NCBI GenBank assembly: GCA_018268595.1
Contig: JAFDWH010000013.1
Span: forward strand, 248,001 to 312,000
Direction: 5' to 3'
Length of the DNA: 64,000 bases
Source of the DNA: Actinomycetota bacterium
GTDB taxonomy: Bacteria; Actinomycetota; Thermoleophilia; Solirubrobacterales; Solirubrobacteraceae
The first letter of the stretch is position 1; each line of letters starts with the position of its first letter. Positions 15,878 to 22,449 of the stretch are shown here, piece by piece. The translations under genes and the position numbers were made by a program. The notes under the pieces are model-generated. The model saw nothing but the letters and a program-made list of their open reading frames with translations, searched no databases and was not told where the DNA came from.

Positions 15878-18388
15878 TTAGCGCACGCCGACTCGGGCGT
15901 CGATGCTCGCTGCACGGCGACCAAACACGCCGATGATCGCCACGGAGACGAGCGTCACCGCCGCGCAGCTCAGGAGCGCGTCGACGACCGCGACCGAGTA
16001 CAGGACGGGGAAGCCCGTCACGCTGGTGAGGGCACGGCTCAGCAGCGATTGGCCGAGCAGGCCGAACAGCGCCCCGATCGCGCAGCCCGCACCGACGAGG
16101 ACGGCCGCCTCGAGCAGCAGGGATCGCCACAGCTCGCCGGCCGAGTATCCCTCAACCTTCATACGGGCCAGGAAGGCACGGCGCTGCCAGATCATCCCGG
16201 CCATCGCCGCCGCCATCGCGATCATGGCCGCGACCAGCACGAGGGCGGCGATCTCCGTAAGACGCGTCAAGCCTTCGCGACTGGCGGCGCGCTGGTCTCG
16301 CTCGCGTTGCGCCGCGGTCTGCACATCGAGGCCGGAGCGCGGTCCGAGCGCTCGACGCAACTCCTGTGCACCTTCAGCCTGCGTCACACCAGGCGCGAGC
16401 GTCGCGTGCACGGCGCTGACATCGTCGCTGCCCCAAGCCCGTGCGTAGTCGTCGCTGTTGAGCACCATCGCGCCCGGCGGCCATCCCATGTTCGTGGACA
16501 GGGCCGACACGCGAAGCGGTGTCGGAACCGGTGAGGGCAGCACGAACCGCTGCCCCACGCGCAGGCCGAGCTGGTTGGCCAGGGCGGCTGAGACGACCGC
16601 CCACCCGCCAGCGCGCAGCAGGCGCGTCGCTCTCGTCGTGTCACCGTCGATCATCTGGCCGCGAGGGATCGGTCGTCGCGCGCTCGCAGGCGAGCCGTAC
16701 ACGACGATCCGGCGGTCGCCGACGTCGAGGAACGAACCGCGAAAGTCAGCGAATCGCGAAATCACGCCGGGAGGAACTCGGAGCGTCGGGGCGCGGAACG
16801 GTGTCGTAGCCAGCAGGTTGGCCCTCCCCGGCGCGACCACCCATACGTCCCCAATCGACGACAGGTCTGCCGAGGTGCGATCCAGTCCGCGTTGCAGGTC
16901 AGCGTGAGCGCCCTGGAGCGCCACGCTGCCGAAGATCGCCACGGCGCCGGTCGCCGCCACCGCCAGCGAGCGCAGGTGCGTGACCGGATCGCGCAGGTCG
17001 GTGATGGCGAGGAAGGGCACGATGCTGCGGATGCCCTCAGTCGCCAGGTCGAGCAGTGCCACGAGTCGCCGCAGAATCAGCGGGAGGAGCAGCAGCATGG
17101 CCACGGTGAGGAACACCAGTCCGCCTACCCCGATTCCCGCCAAGCTCGGACGGGCGATCACCGTAACGATGCCGGCCGCGAGACACACCAGCCCGCTGCT
17201 CAGGAGCGCCGAGTCAAGCCGCCCCGGCTTGCGGTCAAGCGGCTCGATGTCGGCGCCGCGCAGCAGCGACGGCGCCATCGGGCCGAGGACGGCGATCAGG
17301 CTGGCGGCGACCCCGCCGGCCGCCGCGATCACCACTGTCGTCGGCGTCGTGATCCGCTCGGAGCCGAACGCGAAGGCCATTTCGAGAAAGACCGGACGCT
17401 GGTCGAACAGGTGGCGCGCAAGCTGGTCGCCGGCGACGATCCCCACAGCCGAGGCCACCACGCCGAGGACCAGCGCGTCGAACAGCAGCACCTTGAAGAT
17501 CGTTCTCGGTCCGTACCCCTCCGTGCGCAGGTCGGCGATGAGTTGCCGACGCTGCGGGACCGTGAGCAACACGGCGCTGAACGCGAACAGGAAGCCCACC
17601 ATCGCGCTGAAGACCGAGAACATCGCCGTGGACTGACTCGTCGGCTGGGATGCTTGTCGAAACAGCGCCGCGTCGAAGTCGGCCGCCCGCACGTCGATTC
17701 GGCCGGCGGCCAGGCGCGTCAACTCGGCCCTGACCCTGGAGTCCTGGCCTGCCTTTGGGACGACGAAGACCCGCGAGAGCTGCCGGACGCGATTGCTGAG
17801 CGCCTGCGCGTAATGCAGGGGCGCGATTGCCACTGGACTGTCGATCAAGCTGCCGATGTCTGAGGCTTGAAGCTTGGTGCCGAGCCGAGCGACGACGCTG
17901 TGACCGCTGACGTCGAGGATCACCGACTGTCCGAGCGTGAGTCTCAGCTCGTGGACCAGCGGCGTTGGCAGCGCCAGCGCGGTGACATCGGCCAGCCAGC
18001 CATAGGAGAAGACCGGCGACACGGCGCCGTCGAGTTTGGCGAAATCCGGTGTCACACCGACGAGCAGCACTGAGCGACGCAACCGACCGGAACGCGCTTG
18101 AGCACGCACTTCGAGAATGCCGGCCGCGGCAGCGACGCCGGACAACCCTTCGACCTTGGAAAGCATGCGCTCGTCGAAGCCCTCGCCGCGAGCGGCGAAC
18201 TCGTAGCGCGCCTTGCCGACGATGCCCTTCGTGGTGCGCTCGAACGATCCCGTCAAGCTCGTGTTGGCGACCAGAGCTGCAAACAGCAACGAGACGCCGA
18301 CTGCGATCCCGAGCAGGGCCAGCAGCTCTTGGCCGAGCTGCGCCCGAAGACGCATCTGGTAGAGCGCGGCGACGTTGGCGAGCTTCAC
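15878..18388 (-). CDS. FtsX/MacB-type ABC transporter permease, duplicated
   Basis: The GTG at 18388 overlaps the stop of the ATPase gene (GTGA); the upstream extension is Arg-rich and lies inside the ATPase gene. The 836-residue product has the arrangement of duplicated FtsX-type permeases: an N-terminal helix (LALLGIAVGVSLLFAAL), a large extracytoplasmic domain, three helices near residues 255-400, central helices near 425-480 and 510, a second external domain with GDVWVVAPGRANLL, and three C-terminal helices from about residue 705. Such permeases work by mechanotransmission, exporting lipids, lipoproteins or peptides, rather than importing solutes. Two ATPase genes precede it. Confidence 0.87.
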   Translation of the reverse strand: MKLANVAALYQMRLRAQLGQELLALLGIAVGVSLLFAALVANTSLTGSFERTTKGIVGKARYEFAARGEGFDERMLSKVEGLSGVAAAAGILEVRAQARSGRLRRSVLLVGVTPDFAKLDGAVSPVFSYGWLADVTALALPTPLVHELRLTLGQSVILDVSGHSVVARLGTKLQASDIGSLIDSPVAIAPLHYAQALSNRVRQLSRVFVVPKAGQDSRVRAELTRLAAGRIDVRAADFDAALFRQASQPTSQSTAMFSVFSAMVGFLFAFSAVLLTVPQRRQLIADLRTEGYGPRTIFKVLLFDALVLGVVASAVGIVAGDQLARHLFDQRPVFLEMAFAFGSERITTPTTVVIAAAGGVAASLIAVLGPMAPSLLRGADIEPLDRKPGRLDSALLSSGLVCLAAGIVTVIARPSLAGIGVGGLVFLTVAMLLLLPLILRRLVALLDLATEGIRSIVPFLAITDLRDPVTHLRSLAVAATGAVAIFGSVALQGAHADLQRGLDRTSADLSSIGDVWVVAPGRANLLATTPFRAPTLRVPPGVISRFADFRGSFLDVGDRRIVVYGSPASARRPIPRGQMIDGDTTRATRLLRAGGWAVVSAALANQLGLRVGQRFVLPSPVPTPLRVSALSTNMGWPPGAMVLNSDDYARAWGSDDVSAVHATLAPGVTQAEGAQELRRALGPRSGLDVQTAAQRERDQRAASREGLTRLTEIAALVLVAAMIAMAAAMAGMIWQRRAFLARMKVEGYSAGELWRSLLLEAAVLVGAGCAIGALFGLLGQSLLSRALTSVTGFPVLYSVAVVDALLSCAAVTLVSVAIIGVFGRRAASIDARVGVR

Positions 18389-19074
18389 AGGTGGCTGCTG
18401 TCGCCGACGTAGTCCTGCAACCGTCCGTCGTGCAACTCGAGCGCGCGATCGGCGTACCCCGCCACCAAGGGATCGTGCGTGACAAGCAGGGTCGCCACGC
18501 CGCGCTCGTGGCACAGCTCGCACAACAGCTCCATGACGTCACGGCTGCGGCGACTGTCGAGGTTTCCGGTCGGCTCGTCAGCCAGCAGCAACGACGGCTC
18601 GGTCGAGAGCGCGCGGGCGATCAAGACGCGCTGGCGCTCCCCGGTCGACAACTCGTCCCCGGCGTGGCGCAGCCGATCCCCGAGGCCCAACCGGTGCATC
18701 AGCGGCTCGACGCGCCTGCGCGCATCGCGCCGACGCAGCTCGTCGAACAGCTTCAGGGCGGCGTTGTCGATTGCGCTGGCGCCGGGAACGAAGTCGGGCT
18801 GTTGGCGTACGAAGCCGACCTCGTGCAGCCGGTAGGCGGCAGCCTCGCGCTTGGAGAGCGCCAGCACGTCGCGAGAGCCGACGCGCACGGCGCCTGAGTC
18901 CGGGCGCAGCAATGCGGCGATGATCTTGAGCAGGGTCGTCTTGCCCGACCCGCTCGGCCCGTACAGCGCCACCATCTCGCCGGGGTCGATCGACAGCGAC
19001 ACGCCGTCCACCGCCCGGATGACCTCGCCGCCCGGAGAGGCGAAGTGCTTGACCACGCTGTGGAGTTCGAGCAC
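18385..19074 (-). CDS. ABC transporter ATP-binding protein, LolD/MacB type (canonical)
   Basis: This 229-residue ATPase starts with GTG at 19074, immediately after the stop of the other ATPase gene (no gap). All motifs are canonical: Walker A GPSGSGKTT, signature LSTGERQRVLIARAL, Walker B LLLADEPTGNLD with the catalytic Glu, and the switch His in LLVTHDP. The NLDSRRS after Walker B is typical of the LolD/MacB/FtsE group that drives FtsX-type permeases. It overlaps the permease start by 4 bases. It presumably pairs with the degenerate ATPase encoded just upstream, giving an asymmetric motor. Confidence 0.9.
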   Translation of the reverse strand: MLELHSVVKHFASPGGEVIRAVDGVSLSIDPGEMVALYGPSGSGKTTLLKIIAALLRPDSGAVRVGSRDVLALSKREAAAYRLHEVGFVRQQPDFVPGASAIDNAALKLFDELRRRDARRRVEPLMHRLGLGDRLRHAGDELSTGERQRVLIARALSTEPSLLLADEPTGNLDSRRSRDVMELLCELCHERGVATLLVTHDPLVAGYADRALELHDGRLQDYVGDSSHL

Positions 19075-19823: not shown

Positions 19824-20411
19824 CTACGGACGCCGGCGCCCCGAAACGCCGGTCGGATGTTCGACCTGCGCGACGAGCGCTCTGCGGCTCCGCTGCGCCC
19901 ACTCCATCATCGCCTGCATGTGCGCGATCAGGGCGTCGCCCACCAGCACCGCCCCCGGAGTCCGACCGCGAGCGCTGCGGTTGCCGAGCGGATGCTCGAT
20001 CAGGTGCCGCAGCTCGTCGCGGCACTGCTGCTCGAAGTCCGCGAGCGCCTCGATGAGGTGCGGGATGTCATCAGCTCGCGCCGCCATCAACTGCATGTGC
20101 AACTGCTCGCGCAGCGGCTTCTTCTTCGGAATCGATCCCATCCAATCGCGGAACCGAACCTCGCCCCGATCCGTCACCTCGTAATAGACGCGCGACTGGG
20201 CCTGCTTGCTCTTGCTCTTGCCGATCGGCCCGTCTCGCTCGACCACGCGGACAAAGCCCTCACGGTCCAGCGCCTTCAGCGCGGAGTAGACGGCGGTGTC
20301 GGAGTAGCCCAGCGCCTCCGAGAACTCGAGAAGCTGATCGCGCAGCTCGTAGCCATACCCGTAGCCGCGCCGCCAGATCAGCTCCCCAAGCAGCATGTTC
20401 TGTATCGACAA
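19824..20411 (-). CDS. PadR-family transcriptional regulator
   Basis: A TTG at 20411 is chosen because the protein then starts LSIQNMLLGELIWRRGYGYGYEL, which aligns with the usual PadR start (SLRHALLGLL...GYEL); GGGGGAAGG lies just before it, and an in-frame ATG at 20396 is the alternative. The 195-residue protein has the PadR winged helix (TAVYSALKALDREGFVRVV, then VYYEVTDRGEVRFRDWM) and a C-terminal helical dimerisation domain (PLREQLHMQLMAARADDI). It precedes the two ATPases and the permease in one operon, so it probably represses that transporter and releases on binding a small or lipophilic compound. Confidence 0.85.
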   Translation of the reverse strand: MSIQNMLLGELIWRRGYGYGYELRDQLLEFSEALGYSDTAVYSALKALDREGFVRVVERDGPIGKSKSKQAQSRVYYEVTDRGEVRFRDWMGSIPKKKPLREQLHMQLMAARADDIPHLIEALADFEQQCRDELRHLIEHPLGNRSARGRTPGAVLVGDALIAHMQAMMEWAQRSRRALVAQVEHPTGVSGRRRP

Positions 20412-20481
20412 AGCCCTTCCCCCGATCGCAGAAGACCAGGAACGGCACCGTACAGAAGACACTCGCGACTCGCCACCGGTA

Positions 20482-20500
20482 ACTACCCCTAGGACGTAGT
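20482..20500. promoter_or_regulatory. possible PadR operator
   Basis: An inverted repeat ACTAC-N9-GTAGT lies about 70 bases upstream of the PadR start, in the gap shared with the divergent secreted-protein gene. The half-sites are short, so the assignment is weak. Confidence 0.25.
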
Positions 20501-20627
20501 GCTTTGCGTTAGGCATTTGCCGATGCCTCAGCCGCCTCGCGGGAGTGCCGTGGGGCCGGGAAGATCTCGGCGGGCGCGGCGTCCATGTGGGGTGACGCCG
20601 ATCGACGACCGGAAGGAGCCGCGCCCG

Positions 20628-21119
20628 ATGCGACCGATGCACCCGACCTCCGCCCCTGCTCCCGTCCACATCCGCCCGCGGCCACTGGCGGCGGCGCTGG
20701 TCGCGCTCGCCGCGGCGCTGCTCGTCGGGCTCACGGCGCTGGCCGCGCCGGCGCTCGCGAAGCACAGCGTGCACGTGCACGCCGCGCGCAACGCGACGCT
20801 CGGCAAGCGCATCGTCGTGACCGCGCGCGGGCGCACGCTCTACACGCTGAGCGCCGAGGTCCACGGGCGCTTCATCTGCACGGGCGCGTGCCTGGCCGAC
20901 TGGCACCCGCTGAAGGTCCCGGCCGGCGGCAAGGTCGAGGGCGTCGCGCACCTCGGCGTGATCACGCGCCCGGACGGCTCCCGTCAGGCGACCTACCGCG
21001 GCCGCCAGCTCTACACGTTCGACATGGACCACCGGCCGGGCGACGTGAACGGCGAGGGCTTCCGCGACGTCGGCACGTGGCATGCGGCAGTGGCGCCGCG
21101 GGCCGGCGCGCACCGCTGA
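20628..21119 (+). CDS. secreted repeat protein (COG4315 / Lipoprotein_15 family)
   Basis: ATG at 20628 has GGAAGGAG 10 bases upstream and gives a 163-residue protein. Residues about 18-45 form a signal peptide ending in ALAAPALAK, so the product is exported and not lipidated. The mature part contains two copies of the short secreted repeat: GRTLYTLSAEVHGRFICTGA with CLADWHPL, and GRQLYTFDMDHRPGDVNGEG with WHAAVAP. Two cysteines in the CTGAC segment are typical. Family members are widespread in actinobacteria; some are predicted to bind haem or metals, but no function is established. It is divergent from the PadR operon. Confidence 0.82.
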   Translation: MRPMHPTSAPAPVHIRPRPLAAALVALAAALLVGLTALAAPALAKHSVHVHAARNATLGKRIVVTARGRTLYTLSAEVHGRFICTGACLADWHPLKVPAGGKVEGVAHLGVITRPDGSRQATYRGRQLYTFDMDHRPGDVNGEGFRDVGTWHAAVAPRAGAHR

Positions 21120-21135
21120 CGCGCGTCGGGCCGGG

Positions 21136-21160
21136 TTGGAAAGCGTTCACTGCTTTCCAA
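21136..21160. promoter_or_regulatory. operator-like inverted repeat 1 upstream of fic
   Basis: TTGGAAAGC and GCTTTCCAA form a perfect 9-bp inverted repeat around 7 bases. It matches the repeat at 21176-21202 in sequence (TTGGxAAGx) and architecture, with centres 41 bases apart. Confidence 0.55.
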
Positions 21161-21175
21161 GGTTAGGGTGATAAA

Positions 21176-21202
21176 GTTGGGAAGTGGCCGCGACTTCCCA
21201 AC
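21176..21202. promoter_or_regulatory. operator-like inverted repeat 2 overlapping the fic start
   Basis: GTTGGGAAGT and ACTTCCCAAC form a perfect 10-bp inverted repeat around 7 bases. The GTG start of the Fic gene (21184) lies within the left arm, so protein bound here, or the hairpin in the mRNA, would block expression. Confidence 0.55.
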
Positions 21203-22449
21203 CTTCTCACGGCCGGATCGAACGGCGGATCTGGAGACCGGCGATCGACCACGGCGCGGGCCGGCGGCACCGGGTCGCGCAGACGATCGAGTGCTTCGTC
21301 CCGGACCCGATCGCCGAGTGGGACCCCACGCTGACGGCCTCGACGGCGGCGTTGATCGCCGAGGCCGACGCCGAGGTGCGCGAGTTCGACCGCCAGGCGC
21401 CGGACGTGCAGGGGCACGACGCGCTCGCGCGCCAGCTGCTGCGGCAGGAGTCGGTCGGCTCGTCGCGGATCGAGAACCTGATCGTCGGGCAGCGACGGCT
21501 CGCGCGCGCAGCCGCCGGGAGCGGCGCCAAGCACGACGCGACCGCCGACCTCGTGATCGGCAACGTGCGCGCGATGGAGCGCGCGATCGCGCTGGCGACC
21601 GAGCCGCGCCCGCTGACGCGCGACGACGTCGCCGCGATCCATCGCACGCTGTTCGAGGGCACGGTCGACGAGCCGATCGGCGGCGTCGTGCGACAGGAGC
21701 AGAACTGGATCGGCCGCTCGTCGCTCAGCCCCGCCGGCGCCGAGTTCATCCCGCCCCCGCACGAGCACGTCGAGGTGCTGCTCGACGACCTCGCCGCGTT
21801 CCTCAGCCTCGACGACCTGCCGGTGACGCTGCAGGCGGCGATCGCGCACGCGCAGTTCGAGACGATCCATCCGTTCCTCGACGGCAACGGCCGCGTCGGG
21901 CGCTGCCTGATCCACGTCGTCTACCGGCGTCGGGGGCTGGCGACGAGCGTCGTCCCGCCGATCAGCCTCGTGCTGGCGACCCACCACCGTCTGTACGTCG
22001 GCGGGCTGGAGGCCTACCGCTTCGGCGACCTGAAGGACTGGCTGCTGTTCTTCGCCGCCTGCACCGTGAAGGCCGTCGACCGCGCGCACGACCTCGCGTT
22101 CCGCGTCGACGCGCTGCGCGAGCAGTGGCTCGAGCGCCTCGGTCGGCCGCGCAGCCACGCCAGCTCGCGCGCGCTGCTCGACCAGCTCGCGGCCGAGCCG
22201 GTCGTCACGGTCGCGCGCGCCGCCGAGCTGGCCGGCGTCAGCGACACGGCGGCGGCGAGCGCGCTCGCCGCGCTCGAGCGCGCCGGGATCCTGACGCGAC
22301 CGTCGCAGCAGCGCTGGGGGCGGCGCTGGGAGGCGCCGGAGGTGTTCGAGCTGCTCGACGCGTTCGAGCGCGACGTCGCAACGCCCGGCGACGCGACGCG
22401 GCCGGCCCGGCACGCGCCGCGCGGCGGGACGGGGCGGCCGCGTCAGTAG
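21184..22449 (+). CDS. Fic-domain protein with C-terminal winged helix
   Basis: The GTG at 21184 is the only usual start before the conserved region; an in-frame stop lies just upstream. The 421-residue protein has a Fic_N-like N-terminus, the inhibitory motif S93-xxx-E97-N98 (SSRIEN) and the Fic active site HPFLDGNGRVGR from His229, complete with the acidic and Asn/Arg residues needed for AMP transfer. Residues about 320-405 are a winged helix (VARAAELAGVSDTAAASALA, ERAGILTRPSQ). Fic proteins with an N-terminal inhibitory helix are self-inhibited AMP transferases. The winged helix and the two flanking inverted repeats suggest DNA binding and autoregulation. Confidence 0.87.
   Translation: MAATSQPSHGRIERRIWRPAIDHGAGRRHRVAQTIECFVPDPIAEWDPTLTASTAALIAEADAEVREFDRQAPDVQGHDALARQLLRQESVGSSRIENLIVGQRRLARAAAGSGAKHDATADLVIGNVRAMERAIALATEPRPLTRDDVAAIHRTLFEGTVDEPIGGVVRQEQNWIGRSSLSPAGAEFIPPPHEHVEVLLDDLAAFLSLDDLPVTLQAAIAHAQFETIHPFLDGNGRVGRCLIHVVYRRRGLATSVVPPISLVLATHHRLYVGGLEAYRFGDLKDWLLFFAACTVKAVDRAHDLAFRVDALREQWLERLGRPRSHASSRALLDQLAAEPVVTVARAAELAGVSDTAAASALAALERAGILTRPSQQRWGRRWEAPEVFELLDAFERDVATPGDATRPARHAPRGGTGRPRQ

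Follow-up and report, generated by a model that had tools for sequence, protein, structure and literature searches.

A probable autoregulatory operator of four alternating half-sites at the start of a class II winged-helix Fic AMPylase gene

Fic enzymes that carry a winged helix are widespread, and some of them protect against phage in that they kill cells that have been infected. In E. coli, EcSofic kills in the course of a phage infection, and a small antitoxin keeps it in check (PMC12249575). Autorepression by a protein of the Fic-HTH type is already known in at least one instance, that of CccR from Yersinia pseudotuberculosis, which represses its own promoter via inverted repeats near -35 and -10, requires a dimer to do so and has regulatory and toxic activities that are reported to be independent of each other (PMC9755527). 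CbFic2 from Coxiella burnetii (PDB 8CIL) is a Fic-wHTH enzyme that DNA drives into a dimeric, deAMPylating form, with auto-AMPylation brought to a halt (PMC10628234). For SoFic (Shewanella SO_4266, 3EQX/3ZCN), a 2023 paper noted that DNA binding had yet to be demonstrated (PMC10628234), and recent PDB entries include 9TC4, 9TCL, 9TCH and 9TB0. A further Fic-domain protein, from Mycobacterium marinum (7CB8), has been solved with CDP, and a report of DNA binding by it was not found in the literature searched.

The gene considered here lies in a 64,000-nucleotide stretch of a Solirubrobacteraceae genome (hereafter the window), and the features of the locus are collected in Table 1. Judged by its motifs and domains, the encoded protein is a class II Fic AMPylase. 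It contains the Pfam domains Fic_N and Fic, and the class II catalytic motif HPFx[D/E]GN[G/K]Rx2R occurs as HPFLDGNGRVGR at residues 229-240, with H229, P230, D233, G234, N235, G236, R237, G239 and R240 invariant across 37 relatives. An N-terminal inhibitory motif of the (S/T)xxxE(G/N) type has also been detected (S93-S-R-I-E97-N98, SSRIEN), where S93, S94 and E97 are invariant in relatives. The C-terminal winged helix proposed in the initial annotation is borne out by an AlphaFold2 (AF2) model with a mean pLDDT of 92.5, whose fold matches 7cb8 and 3eqx; the C-terminal helices comprise residues 327-335, 343-350 and 354-366, the last being the third helix of the winged helix, while residues 378-379 form part of the wing, which is closed by a strand at 381-383. 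The closest solved structure is 7CB8 (33% identity, TM 0.85-0.91, same domain order); SoFic 3EQX/3ZCN (TM 0.67-0.78 for 3eqx) and CbFic2 8CIL are also among the closest. SoFic shares the class II assignment and the C-terminal winged helix, but the window protein falls far under the NCBIfam NF046030 SoFic equivalog cut-off (62 vs 550 bits). It does match the PADLOC profile of the anti-phage system SoFic (E=1.8e-72, residues 35-391), and it may have a role in defence. On the same strand, a small, probably secreted protein without a Pfam match is encoded at 20585-21119 and ends about 11 bp before the sites described below. An apparent ABC transporter, with an FtsX-like permease and an ATPase, occupies 15878-19074 on the minus strand; upstream of it lie another ATPase and a regulator resembling PadR.

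Table 1. Coordinates of the fic gene, its DNA-reading codons and the sites around its start (positions within the window)
Feature	Coordinates	Strand	Sequence	Remarks
IR1	21136-21160		TTGGAAAGC-GTTCACT-GCTTTCCAA	h1-h2, < > pair
IR2	21177-21201		TTGGGAAGT-GGCCGCG-ACTTCCCAA	h3-h4, < > pair
h1, outer half-site	21131-21144	-	GCTTTCCAACCCGG (minus-strand reading)	Core GCTTTCCAA; core perfect, inner end degenerate
h2, inner half-site	21152-21165	+	GCTTTCCAAGGTTA	Agrees with family half-site (...AAGGTTA)
h3, inner half-site	21172-21185	-	ACTTCCCAACTTTA (minus-strand reading)	
h4, outer half-site	21193-21206	+	ACTTCCCAACCTTC	Within fic coding sequence
Inner > < palindrome	21152-21185		GCTTTCCAAGGTTA GGGTGA TAAAGTTGGGAAGT	14-bp half-sites, 6-bp spacer
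Probable promoter	21146-21177	+	TTCACT (21146-21151), GATAAA/TAAAGT (21170-21177)	Read by eye
fic	21184-22449	+		421 aa, GTG start; by motifs, class II Fic AMPylase; winged helix at the C-terminus
Recognition helix and preceding turn	22237-22281	+		Codons 352-366; AF2 and covariation
Wing codons 378-379	22315-22320	+		Coupled to half-site bases 2-4

Two inverted repeats, IR1 and IR2, had been noted at the fic promoter, and both are present as claimed, with 7-base spacers, centres 41 bp apart (21148 and 21189) and the GTG start inside IR2, whose arms extend to 10 bp. This GTG (21184-21186) is the sole in-frame ATG, GTG or TTG near the 5' end, and the frame is closed upstream of it by a TAA at 21172-21174. 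The window holds 58 perfect 9-bp inverted repeats with loops of 3-12 nt (nested registers included); the majority are GC-rich, and IR1 and IR2 are among the few with just 4 G/C per 9-bp arm. In a pattern search, the method used for all scans of the 3.57 Mb genome for array motifs, TTGGRAAGY-N7-RCTTYCCAA with at most three mismatches matched IR1 and IR2 alone.

The arms of these repeats belong to a larger arrangement. Four half-sites with an RCTTYCCAA core alternate as < > < > over 21131-21206, and a scan with the shared half-site CTTYCCAASSTT returned four matches in 21132-21205, on strands - + - +. The repeats themselves were thus correctly described in the initial annotation, but not the two-palindrome unit, since their arms make up a four-half-site array; similarly, its site list held the outer < > pairs but missed the inner > < pair, the most widely conserved dimer-like site. 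By comparison with relatives, this inner h2-h3 palindrome is the counterpart of the operator conserved among them. It is symmetric at 10/14 positions and, in the pattern search, absent elsewhere in the genome. The window array is weaker than many, given this limited symmetry and the lack of the inner TTA in h1 and h4, and its < > pairs are more perfect than its inner pair. The outer half-site h4, which has 1 mismatch, sits at +32 relative to the array centre, while CAACTTTA of h3 is present too in the relatives L007 and L036. In L007, as at 21193-21206 in the window, the last half-site falls in the first codons of fic, which implies that in some genes the operator and the coding sequence constrain each other. 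A start codon inside the operator, as first annotated, is true of the window gene but peculiar to it; in most relatives fic starts 21-24 nt further downstream.

When compared to CccR, a distant relative, the window protein is alike in combining a Fic domain with a C-terminal HTH and in having inverted repeats at its own promoter, where it would act in repression. The arrangement of the sites is distinct. The CccR footprint, AGATAATCAT-N26-ATGATAATCT, comprises two half-sites, whereas the window has four alternating half-sites of 14 bp, and in place of the 10 bp-N26-10 bp geometry there is an inner spacer of 5-6 bp with outer half-sites at 31-32 bp.

The array likely spans -35, -10 and the GTG start. 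A -35-like TTCACT is located in the IR1 spacer and a -10-like TAAAGT (21172-21177) within h3, six bases before the GTG, so that h3 overlaps the likely -10 and also takes in two bases, the first ones, of the start codon. From these positions the transcript is predicted to start at or beside GTG 21184 and to be leaderless. Since the elements were read by eye and a strict sigma-70 consensus scan returned no match, we infer the promoter and the leaderless start with due reserve. A terminator scan also returned no match. The promoter reading bears on a very improbable alternative, in which the inverted repeats work in RNA and a hairpin over the GTG controls translation. Folding of the strand does give a pair of stable hairpins, one of them enclosing the GTG (-36.2 kcal/mol, z -2.95), but such folding is expected of any inverted repeat, and a transcript starting near the GTG, as the overlap of the probable -10 with h3 implies, would be without the 5' arm. 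In addition, the start codon lies outside the array in most relatives, and a hairpin would not predict the covariation with the recognition helix described below.

Relatives were gathered from genomes of the same family out to other phyla, giving 173 non-redundant loci. A palindrome near the fic start with a score of at least 9 occurs in 63% of these, compared with 2.3% of intragenic controls, and one with a score of at least 10 in 51%, compared with none of the controls. Such start palindromes are common and long, as exemplified by CTTATTAAAGGTTA-5-TAACCTTTAATAAG, CTAAGCGCAGGATA-5-TATCCTGCGCTTAG and GAAAACCAACTTTA-6-TAAAGTTGGTTTTC. Aligned on their centres, the half-sites give the consensus CTTA-KT-NN-AGGWTA, in which the outer CTTA and the inner AGG(T/A)TA are conserved and the middle is variable. 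Conservation of the repeats at orthologs had been named as a check in the initial annotation; it is the architecture that has been kept, and not the letters. About 37% of the relatives have no palindrome above threshold, which is partly due to imperfect operators, as in the window, or to misplaced starts.

The outer half-sites were assessed at 87 strong loci by scanning each locus's own half-site against its own flanks. Extra half-sites peak at +31/+32 bp (>) and -31/-32 bp (<) from the centre, with 16-21 loci at each peak position against 0.16 expected. At least one outer half-site in the right orientation lies 30-32 bp from the centre at 58 of the 87 loci, and both do so at 22; matches in the wrong orientation number 4, and in a control using half-sites from other loci an average of 9.8 loci score. 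The fixed spacing and orientation thus computed in many relatives correspond to an inner spacer of 5-6 bp and a same-sense repeat of 40-41 bp, in which the 41-bp distance first noted in the window recurs. Three loci (L048, L059 and L061) have the inner palindrome only, which suggests that this element alone may be sufficient. Named plasmid records that had previously been unused were also considered. These plasmid Fic proteins of Arthrobacter, Rhodococcus and Mycobacterium (L203-L214) constitute a separate, more distant group with similar spacing and with TGAGAA-like or CTACGTTT-like half-sites, where an outer half-site at 30-32 bp is present in 6/12; they support the spacing and were left out of the residue-to-base analysis. 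Phage records yielded distant Fic proteins only. At another locus (L183, 3701 bases), fic is duplicated in tandem with about 120 bp between the genes, of which the upstream one has an ATTGG-type operator and Lys in the recognition helix, and the downstream one a TCAAGG/AGAAGG-type array. The counts of start palindromes and outer half-sites leave almost no probability to chance or mobile-element repeats devoid of regulatory meaning. Short inverted repeats are indeed frequent in GC-rich DNA, as the 58 in the window attest, but low-GC arms, a sole copy in the genome, the right orientation at a fixed distance and an architecture conserved while its letters change all speak against such an origin.

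The identity of the binding protein is indicated by covariation. At 86 loci, every half-site base was compared by mutual information with all 351 variable columns of the protein, the remainder of which thereby acts as a control for shared ancestry. At one of the 86 loci, the window itself, the score alone picks the h3-h4 register, which was set by hand to h2-h3. For base 7, the best column is residue 355 with 0.84 bits, the next reaching 0.29. Residue 355 is also the best column for base 8, followed by 353, while residue 356 is the best for base 9 and residue 354 ranks second for base 5. Of the wing residues, 379 ranks first for base 3 and second for base 2, and 378 first for base 4. Regarding the letters involved, Arg at 355 occurs with G at base 7 in 21/24 cases, Lys with G in 8/8, Glu with C in 14/14, Gln with C in 33/40 and Pro with A in 33/44; at residue 354, Lys goes with G in 24/24 and Phe with T in 22/22. 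The pairs are chemically sensible, Arg and Lys being matched with G, and Glu and Gln with C. The association persists between distant proteins, with base 7 the same in 63% vs 18% of pairs at a Fic identity <40%. Path-independent pairs on the Fic-domain tree gave p=3.5e-4 for 355/7, p=5e-6 for 356/9 and p=3e-4 for 379/3; the association is weak for 353/8 and 354/5, and not significant for 358/6 and 378/4 (p about 0.1). The signal is limited to a few residues; averaged over the entire winged helix, covariation barely exceeds that of the rest of the protein (0.30 vs 0.24). Two near-invariant columns, R87 and L203, are also high for base 9 in the raw distant-pair ranking, probably owing to a few divergent outliers.

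The window protein, with Thr355 and C7, fits this code, which is less well tested in its case, Thr at 355 being rare in the set (6 half-sites, 4 with C and 2 with T). The same genome encodes a 29% identical paralog (L002, C31:396324-397343) with its own, differing start palindrome, CCGACTCAAGTTT...AAACTTGAGTCGC, and this Gln, C7 pair fits as well. Exceptions occur, such as Gln with A in L125 and Pro with C in L022, and the code is accordingly a tendency with several determinants.

The same data weigh on the possibility that the palindromes are operators of another transcription factor controlling fic and perhaps further genes. Sequence by itself does not name the protein that binds, palindromes at start sites are likewise bound by regulators of the TetR, PadR and GntR types, and one resembling PadR is close by, within the minus-strand frame 19824-21113. 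We nonetheless regard this possibility as slight, because the half-site letters track Fic's own recognition helix residue by residue and across phyla, the genome is without a second copy of the site, and in close Fic relatives a swapped recognition helix is accompanied by swapped half-sites.

The region is therefore best described as very probably the autoregulatory operator of a class II winged-helix, SoFic/CccR-like Fic AMPylase. Sequence-specific self-binding through the winged helix is strongly supported by the covariation, which likewise points to the CccR-type trait of an HTH that recognises inverted repeats in its own promoter. The self-repression proposed in the initial annotation is thereby upheld as to binding; autorepression of fic is likely, by inference from that binding and by analogy. 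In the proposed mechanism, Fic would bind via its C-terminal winged helix to the < > < > half-sites over the promoter and gene start. The N-terminus of the recognition helix (353-356) would read half-site bases 5-9, where it presumably contacts the major groove, whereas the outer A/T-rich bases 2-4 would be read by the wing. Neighbouring dimers, whose same-sense half-sites are spaced by 41 bp or about four turns, would occlude RNA polymerase, possibly as two cooperative dimers or a tetramer, and the occlusion would keep a potentially toxic Fic enzyme low.

It might alternatively be that Fic binds the operator mainly for activation or for control of the enzyme by allosteric DNA, and not for repression. 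CbFic2 provides a precedent, as on DNA it dimerises and shifts towards deAMPylation with auto-AMPylation suppressed (PMC10628234). An array over -35, -10 and the start favours occlusion, and CccR is a repressor, making this alternative improbable as the main effect, although both readings can hold. In the hypothesis of the initial annotation, AMPylation could in turn switch DNA binding; here the reported independence of the two CccR activities stands beside the suppression of auto-AMPylation by DNA in CbFic2. A coupling of operator occupancy to the state of the enzyme is possible by analogy, considering the effect of DNA on CbFic2 and the antitoxin control of EcSofic. CbFic2 was tested with random DNA, whereas the window protein, likewise a putative DNA-binding Fic-wHTH enzyme, has predicted specific sites. 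A bolder version, which we consider unlikely, is that the four-site operator serves as a switch for both promoter and enzyme: bound Fic dimers would be held inactive or deAMPylating, and loss of DNA contact, through phage takeover or DNA damage or modification, would free both the expression and the toxicity of a phage-sensing AMPylase.

A search of the literature, which was without preprints and many subscription papers, brought up neither the four-half-site array nor its spread across phyla nor the recognition code, and this is weak evidence of novelty. Taken together, the array and the residue-to-base code would allow the operators of many Fic-winged-helix proteins to be predicted from sequence, and self-repression, specificity swaps and the coupling between operator and AMPylation would become directly testable.
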